Assembly (NCBI RefSeq): GCF_000187935.1
Contig: NZ_AEUT02000001.1
Coordinates: 806,001 to 870,000, forward strand
Direction of reading: 5' to 3'
Length of the DNA: 64,000 nt
Source of the DNA: Streptococcus parauberis NCFD 2020
Lineage (GTDB): Bacteria; Bacillota; Bacilli; Lactobacillales; Streptococcaceae
The notes beneath the pieces are model-generated. The model ran no database searches. It had not been told where the DNA came from and was given only the letters and a program-made list of their open reading frames with translations. Made by a program: the position numbers and the translations under genes. Below, one piece after another: positions 32,611 to 35,255 of this stretch (positions within the stretch are counted from its first letter, which is position 1; each line of letters starts with the position of its first letter).

Positions 32611-32856
32611 TTGACAGGCATTCTTTTTGATGCTATCATACAAGTAATTACAACTCGGAGGTACAAAGAGCAATGGATAACTAAAAAACTAAAAGAAGAT
32701 AGCCTTATCAAGTCTTTAGTTTTTTAGTGTGCTCTATATCTCAAACTACGTCTTTTTTGGTAGTTTATTTATTTGTATCTTCTTGACTTTCTACTTGCTA
32801 GGGTAGAAAGTTTTTTCTCTTCTTTTTAATAGATTACTCACAAAAAAGGAGACTAT
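32611..32856 (+). promoter_or_regulatory. Attenuator-like leader of the ABC-F gene
   Basis: This 323-base gap holds a promoter, TTGACA (32611-32616), 17 bp, TATCAT (32634-32639), then GGAGG (32657-32661) before a three-codon ORF ATG GAT AAC TAA (32673-32684). A long AU stem (32680-32696 with 32713-32728) starts on that stop codon, a second hairpin is at 32743-32766, and an intrinsic terminator (ACTTTCTAC / GTAGAAAGT, 32786-32811, then TTTTTTCTCTTCTTTTT) ends 31 bp before the gene. This is the layout of ribosome-mediated attenuation known for ABC-F resistance genes. Confidence 0.7.
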
Positions 32857-34368
32857 ATGCTACAAATAATAAATGTTACATTAACCCATCAAAATGATTT
32901 AAGTAAATTGACAGATAAGCTAAGCTTTACATTATCAACAGGTGAAAAATTAGGAATCATCGGTGAGGAAGGTACTGGAAAATCTAGTCTACTACAAGCT
33001 ATTTATCAACCTAACTTGATTTCATCATATTTAGATATAGAAGGTCAAATTACTAACCAATTTAAAAAACTAGCCTACTTACCACAAAGTCTTGAAAAAA
33101 GTGTCCTCAACCTAAGTCCTTCAGAATTTCTTTATCAGGATTTAGATTATGATATGTTTGACTTCAATCATTTCTACCAACTTGCAAACCAACTCAACTT
33201 TAAGACTGATCATTTAGAAAATGATCAGTTGAAAATGAAGGATTTATCAGGTGGCGAACGACTCAAGCTTCAATTGATGAAGCTCTTAGCACATGGCCCT
33301 GACCTTCTTCTCTTAGATGAACCTTCGGCTGATTTGGACTTGACCTCTTCAGAATGGCTAGCGCAATTTATCAAGACAAGTCCACTGACTATTATTTTTA
33401 TTTCTCATGATCAGGCTTTGTTAGAAGCTTGCGCAACAGCAATACTTCATCTTGAATTAGTCAAAAAGCGAACTGTTGCATCATATCATTTCTCAAAAAC
33501 CAACTATTCCGACTATATCACAAATAGGCTAGCAGCTTTTGAGAAACAGAGTCAATTAGCCAATAAGGAAAAAGAAGAGTTTGACAAGAAGGAAGCTCGC
33601 TTTAAACGCGTCCATGAAAGGGTACAACATCAACTTGAACATACAAAAGATTCTACTGCTGGACGCTTATTAGCTAAAAAAATGAAAGCTCTTAAATCAC
33701 AGGAAAGTCGGTTAGCAAAAGATCATAATCAGTTGACCAAAGCACCCCTGGAAATGGATAGTCTTAACTTATTCTTCACGGATATTCCTCGCTTGGCCAA
33801 GCAGCGAACTATCTTGCACTTGCAGGATCAAGTCTTGATTAGTGGTCAGGTCATCTCTTTCTTGGTTAAAGGACAAGACAAGGTCGTCATTACTGGTCTA
33901 AATGGAATTGGTAAAACCAAGTTATTAAAATATATCCTTGAAACCCTACAAGCTGATCCGACTTTGTCGATTGGCTATATGCCACAAAACTATGAAGAGC
34001 TTTTAAATCCTGAGCAAAGTCCCCTGGAATTTTTAGACGATTACCCTCTTGAGGATATCAAATCGATTTTGGCTAGTTTGCAATTCACGAGGGAGGAAAT
34101 CAAGCATGGTTTAGGTCAGTTATCTGGTGGTCAAAGGGCTAAACTGTTTTTAGCAAAAATGGTATTAGATAAAAATAATCTATTAATTTTGGATGAACCA
34201 ACTAGACATTTTTCACCGACAAGTCAACCTTTAGTTCGCCAATTATTTATGGATTATCCTGGTGCAATCATTTCTGTTTCCCATGATGCCTATTTTATTA
34301 ATGAAACAGGTTTCTCTATTTTTCAATTAACTGATAATGATTTATTAGCCCAAGCTATTGACAGATAG
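32857..34368 (+). CDS. ABC-F ribosome-protection-like ATPase
   Basis: Soluble tandem-ATPase protein of 503 residues with no membrane segments. ABC1: Walker A GEEGTGKSS near 35-43, signature LSGGERLKLQL near 128, Walker B LLLDEPSADLD. Basic, coiled linker about 190-290. ABC2: Walker A GLNGIGKTK near 350, signature LSGGQRAKLFL near 424, then LILDEPTRHFSPTSQP in place of the housekeeping DEPTNHLD. That DEPTRxxSPxSxP form is seen in antibiotic-resistance ABC-F proteins (Vga, Lsa, VmlR groups). Ribosome rescue from lincosamide/pleuromutilin-type drugs is therefore plausible but unproven. GGAG precedes the ATG. Confidence 0.85.
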   Translation: MLQIINVTLTHQNDLSKLTDKLSFTLSTGEKLGIIGEEGTGKSSLLQAIYQPNLISSYLDIEGQITNQFKKLAYLPQSLEKSVLNLSPSEFLYQDLDYDMFDFNHFYQLANQLNFKTDHLENDQLKMKDLSGGERLKLQLMKLLAHGPDLLLLDEPSADLDLTSSEWLAQFIKTSPLTIIFISHDQALLEACATAILHLELVKKRTVASYHFSKTNYSDYITNRLAAFEKQSQLANKEKEEFDKKEARFKRVHERVQHQLEHTKDSTAGRLLAKKMKALKSQESRLAKDHNQLTKAPLEMDSLNLFFTDIPRLAKQRTILHLQDQVLISGQVISFLVKGQDKVVITGLNGIGKTKLLKYILETLQADPTLSIGYMPQNYEELLNPEQSPLEFLDDYPLEDIKSILASLQFTREEIKHGLGQLSGGQRAKLFLAKMVLDKNNLLILDEPTRHFSPTSQPLVRQLFMDYPGAIISVSHDAYFINETGFSIFQLTDNDLLAQAIDR

Positions 34369-34392: not shown

Positions 34393-35097
34393 ATGAAAAC
34401 ATTACGTTATTTCACTATTACTGAATGGTCATTGTGGTTATTTTCAATCTTGGCTATTCTTAGTACATCAATCTATTTTGGTAATCAAGAGCCTTTAGCT
34501 ATCTTAGCTTCAATGATCGGAATTACTTCCTTAATTTTTTCAGCCAAAGGTAATCCTATTGGTCAGGGATTAATTATTATTTTTGCTGTGATTTATGCCT
34601 ACCTAGCCCTACGAAATAACTACTATAGTGAGCTGATTACCTATAGTTGTCTAACTCTACCTATGGCTGTATTTTCACTTTTGTCCTGGCTGAGTCATCC
34701 TTTCCAAGGAAAAAAGGCACAAGTTACAATCAGTCAAGTCAAAGTTAAGGATTACTATTTATTATTTCTTCTAACCGTTCTGATTACTGTCATATTCTAT
34801 TATATTTTAGGAATATTTCATACACCATTTTTACTGGTTTCAACGCTTTCCATAGCGACTGCTTTTGCTGGTACCTTTCTTACTTATAAGAGAAGTCCTA
34901 ATTTTGCTTTAGCTTATTGTTTAAATGATATAATCTTAATTGCCTTATGGCTGTTTGAAGCGCAATCAGATAGCAGTCATTATGCTTTAGTCATCTGCTT
35001 TGCGACATTCCTAATAAGTGATATATACACCTATATGAACTGGCTAAGAATTCACCGACTACAATTGTTGGCAATAGAAAAAAAGAATGAGCTTTAA
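34393..35097 (+). CDS. pnuC: PnuC-family nicotinamide riboside transporter
   Basis: Membrane protein of 234 residues with seven or so hydrophobic segments. The C-terminal FATFLISDIYTYMNWLRI near residues 205-222 and FALAYCLNDIILIALWLFEA near 175-194 match PnuC transporters of NAD precursors. It begins 24 bp after the ABC-F stop. No ribosome site is visible before the ATG (GTTTGAATTAGTAC), so translation may depend on coupling. Its stop codon overlaps a convergent small gene and both lie in a terminator stem. Confidence 0.85.
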   Translation: MKTLRYFTITEWSLWLFSILAILSTSIYFGNQEPLAILASMIGITSLIFSAKGNPIGQGLIIIFAVIYAYLALRNNYYSELITYSCLTLPMAVFSLLSWLSHPFQGKKAQVTISQVKVKDYYLLFLLTVLITVIFYYILGIFHTPFLLVSTLSIATAFAGTFLTYKRSPNFALAYCLNDIILIALWLFEAQSDSSHYALVICFATFLISDIYTYMNWLRIHRLQLLAIEKKNEL

Positions 35098-35113
35098 GCT
35101 TCATTCTTTTTTT
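35078..35113. terminator. Bidirectional terminator over two convergent stop codons
   Basis: AAAAAAAGAATGAGCTT pairs with AAGCTTCATTCTTTTTTT (one bulge). It spans the 3' codons of pnuC and of the small protein on the other strand. Confidence 0.75.
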
Positions 35114-35255
35114 CTAGTTTTTCCCGCTCTAAACGTAAACGTCGATTGGGATTAAGTTGGTTGAAAAGTTCTTCTAGTTTTTCAGCATTCCAAACATCAG
35201 CTGCTGAAACGAAGTTGCCATCCTTATCTCTAAAAGATATGGGTTTATCTCCCAT
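35094..35255 (-). CDS. Small conserved-type protein downstream of obg
   Basis: 53 residues, starting MGDKPISFRDKDGNFVSAAD and ending in a charged helix (RLRLEREKLEKKNEA). AAAGGAG lies 7 nt before the ATG. It starts 40 bp after the obg stop and is likely co-transcribed with it. No membrane segment, no known motif. Its reading frame, ribosome site and terminator together support a real gene. Confidence 0.72.
   Translation of the reverse strand: MGDKPISFRDKDGNFVSAADVWNAEKLEELFNQLNPNRRLRLEREKLEKKNEA

Follow-up and report, generated by a model that had tools for sequence, protein, structure and literature searches.

What controls an ABC-F ATPase gene that stands behind a promoter, a three-codon reading frame and a terminator? 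This question is raised by a locus of Streptococcus parauberis NCFD 2020, located in a stretch of 64,000 nucleotides (positions 806,001 to 870,000 of contig NZ_AEUT02000001.1, assembly GCF_000187935.1) that is called the window here and to which all coordinates refer. A first-pass annotation, made from the letters alone, had proposed that the leader of this gene (32611-32857) is a drug-responsive attenuator, in which a ribosome stalled on the short upstream open reading frame (uORF) would favour readthrough into the gene. The results described below indicate that the leader is very probably a ribosome-sensing transcription attenuator of the ABC-F gene. Its parts, its conservation among relatives and the covariation of both of its alternative helices can be read from nucleotide sequence.

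Conservation of the leader in Streptococcus

The promoter of consensus type, the GGAGG ahead of the uORF, the second hairpin and the intrinsic terminator ahead of the ribosome site of the ABC-F gene were all found as the annotation had described them (Table 1). The A/U-rich stem of 16 bp also exists, but its 5' arm begins within the AAC codon, two bases ahead of the stop codon at which it had been placed. The promoter is the top one of 17 hits within 4 kb, where 14.7 are expected by chance, so that promoter hits as such are weak evidence; the same distance holds three terminator-like sites, with 2.1 expected. The pattern of GGAGG, 5-11 nt, ATG, two codons and TAA occurs at only five sites on both strands of the 2.16-Mb genome, the leader included (the reversed pattern also gives five), and one exactly at this place is thus unlikely to arise by chance. 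No obvious similar leader was seen by eye at the other four sites. The 177-nt leader of the window folds at -51.4 kcal/mol (z -5.3), and none of 200 shuffled sequences was equally good.

The decisive point for the reality of the leader is conservation among relatives. The ABC-F gene is near-core in the genus: 246 of the 284 Streptococcus genomes contain a match with E <= 1e-90. Upstream regions were taken from the better-scoring part of these matches (30 loci, including the window's own, and 80 more), and in 105 of the 110 a pattern search recognised a Shine-Dalgarno sequence with a short ORF where one would be expected. For several leaders with a TTG or GTG start, the pattern reports an overlapping frame instead. 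Two further uORFs, of five codons (L191) and nine codons (L144), were recognised by eye, which raises the count to 107; L135 is without a uORF, and L138 and L197 are truncated at contig ends. Matches to the small RNA family SpF43, discussed below, were counted as leader evidence at E <= 0.001. With these included, 230 of the 246 genomes have leader evidence, 123 of them through the SpF43 match alone. Twelve of the remaining 16 genomes were fetched, and eleven carry a short uORF. The total is therefore 241 of 246 (118 upstream regions read and 123 SpF43 matches alone), with a uORF in 118 of the 122 Streptococcus regions read (107/110 and 11/12). The annotation had named conservation in relatives as a test of its proposal, and the leader is conserved.

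A second script with a looser filter annotated 130 of the 139 leaders tried, 28 of which are pneumococcus-like SpF43 loci; it missed eight, lost one without a terminator call, and misread the frame of L195 (MET for MNN). A hairpin with a T tract is present in 130 of the 131 leaders with a script-found uORF. The commonest peptide among the 130 is MNN (61), with MKN (22), MDNNK (8), LKN (6), MYKKSIA (5), MIN (4), MIH (4), MRN (3) and others behind it; MDN is the window's own. In 118 of them the codon before the stop encodes Asn or Lys. Some streptococcal groups have uORFs of 5, 7 or 9 codons (MDNNK, MYKKSIA, MDSKKLIFC) or TTG or GTG starts, as if the peptide and the strength of the start were tuned.

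In 37 aligned leaders GAGG is invariant; the Shine-Dalgarno sequence and start codon vary least, in contrast to the letters of the stem, which change. This bears on the idea that the leader is a metabolite riboswitch or a protein-binding attenuator with an incidental short ORF. The strong structure of the leader would suit such an element, as would the PnuC-type second gene, given that streptococcal pnuC genes have been reported with an NAD+-related RNA motif (PMC8632094). It is, however, the translation signals that stay constant while the stem letters change. Furthermore, no Rfam family, and hence no riboswitch, reached its gathering threshold over the window; a PreQ1 match scores 15.1 bits against a threshold of 39 and lies on the opposite strand. 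An element of this kind is extremely unlikely.

Covariation of stem 1 and the antiterminator

The annotation overlooked a second partner for the top of stem 1. In relatives, this region is complementary to the 5' arm and loop of the terminator, and the letters change on both sides together, which indicates that the proposed antiterminator covaries across species. The pairing is kept despite changed letters in CTTTATCTAG/CTAGATAAAG (L011), ACCATATCAGGT/ACCTGATATGGT (L128) and CTGTCTAG/CTAGACAG (L133), and further covarying strand pairs are CTTTATCAAGT/ACTTGATAAAG, ACTTTATCTAG/CTAGATAAAGT and ACTTATTTAGTAGT/ACTACTAAATAGGT.

The pairings were assessed by a swap test, in which RNA duplex energies were calculated for each leader region against its own and all other terminator halves, with no choice of register. 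The test comprised 65 non-redundant leaders (of the 130 annotated) and 20,000 cross-species re-pairings. The native antiterminator has a mean of -14.2 kcal/mol, versus -10.7 when permuted (z -11.0), and the native stem 1 a mean of -22.6 versus -16.3 kcal/mol (z -14.5); none of the 20,000 re-pairings was as good in either case. A control region upstream of the Shine-Dalgarno sequence, run on the 65-leader set only, gave no signal (-9.1 versus -9.3 kcal/mol, z +0.9). When the set was thinned to 45 leaders, z was -12.2 for stem 1 and -9.5 for the antiterminator, and with 34 leaders it was -10.6 and -8.4; again, none of 20,000 re-pairings reached the native value. The stem 1 of the window ranks second among the 65 leaders. 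For leaders such as L010, L137 and L173, a first automatic helix search had chosen partners outside stem 1, and its uORF filter missed many, including the window's. The conservation of the leader and the covariation of stem 1 and the antiterminator support the earlier proposal of an attenuator that would depend on the uORF and open upon ribosome stalling.

Proposed switch and comparison with known attenuators

The predicted fold of the nascent window RNA ending at 32800 is stem 1. When a ribosome-sized mask is centred on any of the three uORF codons, the same RNA is predicted to form an antiterminator (-14.2 to -16.5 kcal/mol) whose apex is the second hairpin. The following sequence of events can thus be proposed. 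Transcription would start near 32646, judging from the promoter. As long as ribosomes are free, they would translate the three-codon uORF and be released at once, and stem 1 could form and sequester the antiterminator strand (32703-32713). The terminator hairpin (32785-32812) would then form, and transcription would halt before the ABC-F gene. A drug-stalled ribosome at the start codon or inside the three-codon frame would instead cover the 5' arm of stem 1, and the freed strand could pair with the 5' arm and loop of the terminator before the polymerase completes it. With the terminator blocked, the ABC-F gene, and probably the pnuC-like gene behind it, would be transcribed. Termination, stalling by drugs, its timing, the class of inducer and protection by the ABC-F protein are what we infer from this arrangement.

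Attenuators of the short-uORF type include the leader of Listeria lmo0919/vgaL, which has a premature terminator and whose gene is induced by antibiotics. The closest parallel in design is found in vmlR of Bacillus subtilis, where attenuation through a uORF encoding MIN has been demonstrated (PMC9226507). Both leaders have a three-codon uORF in the first stem, a second hairpin, a terminator, and an antiterminator that the second hairpin caps. When the vmlR uORF was changed to MDN, which is also the peptide encoded in the window, or to MDK, it functioned no less well than with MIN; the two leaders differ in the ABC-F protein they precede. In vmlR, a hairpin named SL-4 hides the Shine-Dalgarno sequence of the gene. 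By sequence, the window leader has what characterises a vmlR-type attenuator, namely a downstream ABC-F gene, a conserved uORF inside the first stem, a terminator and, at the level of the family, an exclusive antiterminator.

The cplR leader of Clostridioides difficile, whose expression is induced by antibiotics, likewise holds a short uORF (MR[I/M]) in a 5' hairpin and has a premature terminator (PMC10201436, the study that also deposited the structure 8buu). The terminator hairpin of cplR also hides the Shine-Dalgarno sequence of the gene, whereas in the window about 35 nt separate the end of the terminator stem from this site. The comparison raises the possibility that control is mainly translational, through sequestration of the ABC-F Shine-Dalgarno sequence, and that the terminator is of minor importance. 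Added translational control is carried by both vmlR and cplR (PMC9226507, PMC10201436), and in cplR uORF stalling was essential for induction while premature termination was not (PMC10201436). In the window, however, the Shine-Dalgarno sequence falls outside the terminator hairpin, and it is the terminator that is the covarying target; mainly translational control is quite unlikely.

Streptococcal msrD (PMC10314930) is another ABC-F gene under ribosome-mediated transcription attenuation. Its leader peptide, MYLIFM, senses cladinose macrolides with the last codon in the P site and serves the mefA/msrD operon, whereas the uORF of the window encodes MDN and the gene is near-core. A further known leader is that of Streptomyces are5sc, an actinobacterial ARE5 gene, with the uORF MLV (PMC12421871).

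Two further complementarities exist in the window leader, and both appear in predicted folds. Positions 32693-32701 can pair with 32776-32784 (AAGAAGATA/TATCTTCTT; the nearest relative, L009, retains the pair as AAGAAGAT/ATCTTCTT), and the Shine-Dalgarno region of the uORF (32657-32667) is complementary to 32772-32782 (TTTGTATCTTC), right before the terminator.

The SpF43 small RNA

A permissive Rfam search places RF02436 (SpF43_sRNA) at the window leader, over positions 1-99 of 99, with 18.9 bits and an E-value of 0.27. By score the leader is not a member of SpF43, although the gene behind it is orthologous. SpF43 has matches in 163 of the 284 Streptococcus genomes, over threshold in 125, and 160 of the 163 have an ABC-F match. 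Among the matches listed, 77 genomes could be paired, and in 75 of these SpF43 lies 113-310 nt upstream of the ABC-F gene on the same strand; in the other two the matches are on different contigs. When 30 SpF43 loci were fetched, 29 encoded the ABC-F protein downstream and the thirtieth ended at a contig edge. All 29 carry the uORF, as GAGG...ATGAACAACTAA. Three SpF43 genomes lack an ABC-F match at 1e-90, and ABC-F sequence is still found downstream: the match is split across two frames in L261 (G074), ends at residue 333 in L262 (G129), and reaches residue 432, near the end of the fetched stretch, in L263 (G105), where the gene may be whole. SpF43 thus resembles the window leader in its place before the same ABC-F gene in relatives and in its Shine-Dalgarno sequence, uORF and stem, but it is annotated as a small RNA.

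This annotation goes back to Mann et al. (2012), who described F43 of pneumococcus as a 99-nt RNA (TIGR4 1216148-1216246) between SP1281 and SP1282, found in a library of RNAs shorter than 200 nt (their Table 1) and confirmed by Northern blot (PMC3395615). A study from 2025 keeps it as a putative small RNA, M52 (PMC12323649). Such results would fit a leader that acts mainly in trans as a small RNA and stands before the ABC-F gene incidentally. However, the spacing and strand recur in 75 of the 77 genomes, ABC-F sequence follows even in the three genomes without a match at 1e-90, the uORF is present in all 29 loci, and the stem has pairings with the terminator that covary in the family. In addition, a delta-F43 mutant was made, and it is not among the eight mutants reported as attenuated in mice (PMC3395615). 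A mainly trans-acting role is very unlikely. Most likely, F43/SpF43 is what remains of the SP_1282 leader after termination, either whole or as a stable fragment. SP_1282, called 'ABC transporter, ATP-binding protein' (PMC4243769), appears from its position to be the ortholog of the ABC-F gene studied here. In a literature search with most subscription papers outside its coverage, the streptococcal leader was not found described as a uORF attenuator, and SpF43 as the leader of an ABC-F gene is apparently unreported.

Two variants of one S. pneumoniae isolate differ by a base just upstream of SP_1282, at a site that by its position would fall within the leader (PMC4243769).

The ABC-F protein and the probable inducers

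The nearest named relative of the ABC-F protein is from Streptococcus hongkongensis (78% identity), and a 78% match is also found in S. uberis CAIM 1894; the second-best match within its own genome has 36% identity over partial length. The top matches among solved structures are 7p48 chain 6 (147.6 bits), named 'ABC-F type ribosomal protection protein', and 8buu (138 bits), which we take to be VmlR2. A chain of 6ha8 named 'ExpZ', presumably VmlR, matches at 137.7 bits. In favour of a resistance type, the two domains are joined by a linker of the same length as in 7p48 chain 6 (97 residues in each, in the alignment). The motif DEPTRHFSPTSQP, which the annotation had put forward as a signature of resistance-type ABC-F proteins, could not be confirmed as such: the five chains listed, two of them of the resistance type, read DQPTNHLD, DEPTNHLD or DEPTNDLD at this place. 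Lsa, presumably the likeliest protein to share the motif, is not among them. A resistance function of the protein is putative; the structure matches and the linker moderately favour a drug as the inducer.

Given that MDN is functional in vmlR and is also the peptide of the window's uORF, drugs that block the first peptide bonds, i.e., those of the peptidyl transferase centre (lincosamides, pleuromutilins and streptogramin A), are by analogy the most likely inducers. The same attenuator could instead respond to generally slow initiation or early elongation, caused by a shortage of charged tRNA or by initiation stress. The near-core status of the gene (246 of 284 genomes) and the predominance of MNN (61 of 130) are consistent with such a natural signal, and the literature search found no drug resistance due to the streptococcal ABC-F gene. 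However, the peptides vary (MNN, MKN, MIN, MDN, MDK, MIH, MRN, LKN, MDNNK, MYKKSIA), so that the signal is not one particular amino acid, the gene product resembles ribosome-protection proteins, and MIN, MDN and MDK are all drug-responsive in vmlR (PMC9226507). A general slowdown as the natural signal is unlikely.

Results that weigh against an attenuator

Several results speak against reading the leader as a ribosome-sensing attenuator. The finished transcript is predicted to prefer the terminator even with the ribosome masked, so that the model depends on kinetic timing, which is assumed. In the swap tests, the permutation ignores the tree, and thinning is its only guard against kinship. RNAalifold found no consensus pairs in a MAFFT alignment of 37 leaders, probably because the stems differ in length and letters; the cross-species swap tests took its place. 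The antiterminator of the window (CCUUAUCAAGU/ACUUGCUAGGG) is imperfect, with one U-C mismatch and one G-U pair (-8.8 kcal/mol); the window's own terminator ranks 32nd of 65 as a partner for its leader, and its stem-1 region alone folds with a z of only -1.96. Across the 65 leaders, the native terminator has a median rank of 10 and is in the top tenth in 21, the terminators of relatives often fitting equally well, and 17 leaders fall short of a fold z < -2 in the stem-1 region. The window leader is far under the 70-bit gathering threshold of SpF43, and its own genome has no SpF43 match at E <= 0.001. The exceptions among the 246 genomes are G059, which has no leader, G029, which has a 14-codon frame instead, G009, which is truncated at a contig edge, and G207 and G243, which fell outside the sample. 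Against a resistance type, the protein scores below the curated cut-offs of the NCBIfam ARE models among the best 25 of 182 models: the best general model, NF000355, gives 288.7 bits against a cut-off of 380, and scores and cut-offs are 201.4/725 for Sal, 199.4/680 for Msr, 187.3/725 for Vga, 155.5/780 for CplR, 145.9/750 for Lsa and 134.3/1450 for OptrA. The ABC-F protein is thus not filed in any named resistance family.

Leaders beyond Streptococcus and wider significance

Outside Streptococcus, relatives of the gene (mostly clostridial, 36-42% identity) were searched from 400 to 30 nt before the gene, with one of 77 loci omitted for its short upstream sequence. A Shine-Dalgarno match with an ORF of 3-4 codons was found in 40 of 76, where shuffled sequences lead one to expect 4.7 (related genomes being unthinned). 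The commonest peptides are MRK and MRR, and most clostridial uORFs end in Lys, Arg or Asn. Of the 33 matched Lactobacillales other than streptococci, 13 were read by eye; ten have a Shine-Dalgarno-like stretch and a four-codon frame ending in Ile (MYTI, MIII, MLTI), and three have only a doubtful ATG-AAG-TTA-TAA far from the Shine-Dalgarno sequence. The script pattern found none in these 13 leaders.

The mechanism is of a known kind; as far as the literature was searched, the novelty lies in its spread across the genus, in an antiterminator that covaries and in the new interpretation of SpF43. It is tempting to extend this picture further. The chances are about even that most streptococci, pneumococcus included, have a ribosome-protection ABC-F gene that is normally silent and inducible by drugs, that it is controlled by one ancient attenuator with a sensor peptide of about 3-5 codons, that this attenuator extends to other Lactobacillales and clostridia, and that SpF43/F43 is its terminated leader and not a trans-acting RNA. 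The bias towards Asn or Lys as the last codon in streptococci, and towards Lys, Arg or Asn in most clostridia, if it is not an effect of RNA pairing, would point to selection for a minimal stalling peptide rather than for any short frame, yet ten other Lactobacillales have Ile there. Reading SpF43 as a leader assigns a concrete function, open to experiment, both to a catalogued small RNA of pneumococcus and to an ABC-F gene that is near-core but uncharacterised. The attenuator reading also predicts that inducible ribosome protection may go unnoticed when susceptibility is tested in uninduced cells. Finally, more than 100 natural variants of a minimal uORF leader would allow a side-by-side comparison of which short peptides let which drugs stall the ribosome.

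Feature map and neighbouring genes

Table 1. Features of the leader and adjacent genes in the window
Feature	Position	Strand	Basis
Promoter, sigma-70 type, with 17-nt spacer and extended -10 TG	TTGACA 32611-32616; TATCAT 32634-32639	+	Consensus, 11/12 matches
Shine-Dalgarno sequence of the uORF, GGAGG	32657-32661	+	Sequence
Three-codon uORF ATG GAT AAC TAA (Met-Asp-Asn, MDN)	32673-32684	+	Sequence; short uORF in the same place in relatives
Stem 1, proposed anti-antiterminator, 16 bp, A/U-rich	32680-32696 with 32713-32728	+	Folding, swap tests
GAUA/UAUC apical hairpin of stem 1	32698-32709	+	Folding
Proposed antiterminator, 5' strand CCUUAUCAAGU, top and 3' side of stem 1	32703-32713	+	Same letters in L009
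Second hairpin AAACTAC/GTAGTTT, apex of proposed antiterminator	32743-32749 with 32760-32766	+	Sequence, folding
Intrinsic terminator, 12-bp stem, 4-nt loop, then T-rich tail	32785-32819 (hairpin 32785-32812)	+	Terminator scan
Proposed antiterminator, 3' strand ACUUGCUAGGG, overlapping 5' arm, loop and start of 3' arm of terminator	32793-32803	+	Same letters in L009
Shine-Dalgarno sequence of ABC-F gene, AAGGAG	32847-32852	+	Sequence
ABC-F ATPase gene, 503 aa, ribosome-protection-like	32857-34368	+	ORF, profile and structure-chain matches
PnuC-like nicotinamide riboside transporter gene, 24 nt behind ABC-F	34393-35097	+	TIGR01528, 60.8 bits (cut-off 42.45)
Terminator-like site at end of pnuC-like gene	35075-35116	–	Terminator scan

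The genes upstream of the leader are glnH/P- and glnQ-like. Downstream, the pnuC-like gene is probably on the same transcript as the ABC-F gene and may be induced along with it; the 24-nt gap between the two leaves no room for an NAD+-related RNA motif of its own.

In eight relatives (L012, L013, L015, L022, L024, L027, L029 and L034), a small basic ORF, about 46-50 codons long and with H(N/S)xGNR at its end, lies between the attenuator and the ABC-F gene; the window lacks it. A scan of four of the eight gave no Pfam family above cut-off (best E 0.03). The ORF of L015 has six database relatives, of which the named one is a 'hypothetical protein' of Streptococcus minor.

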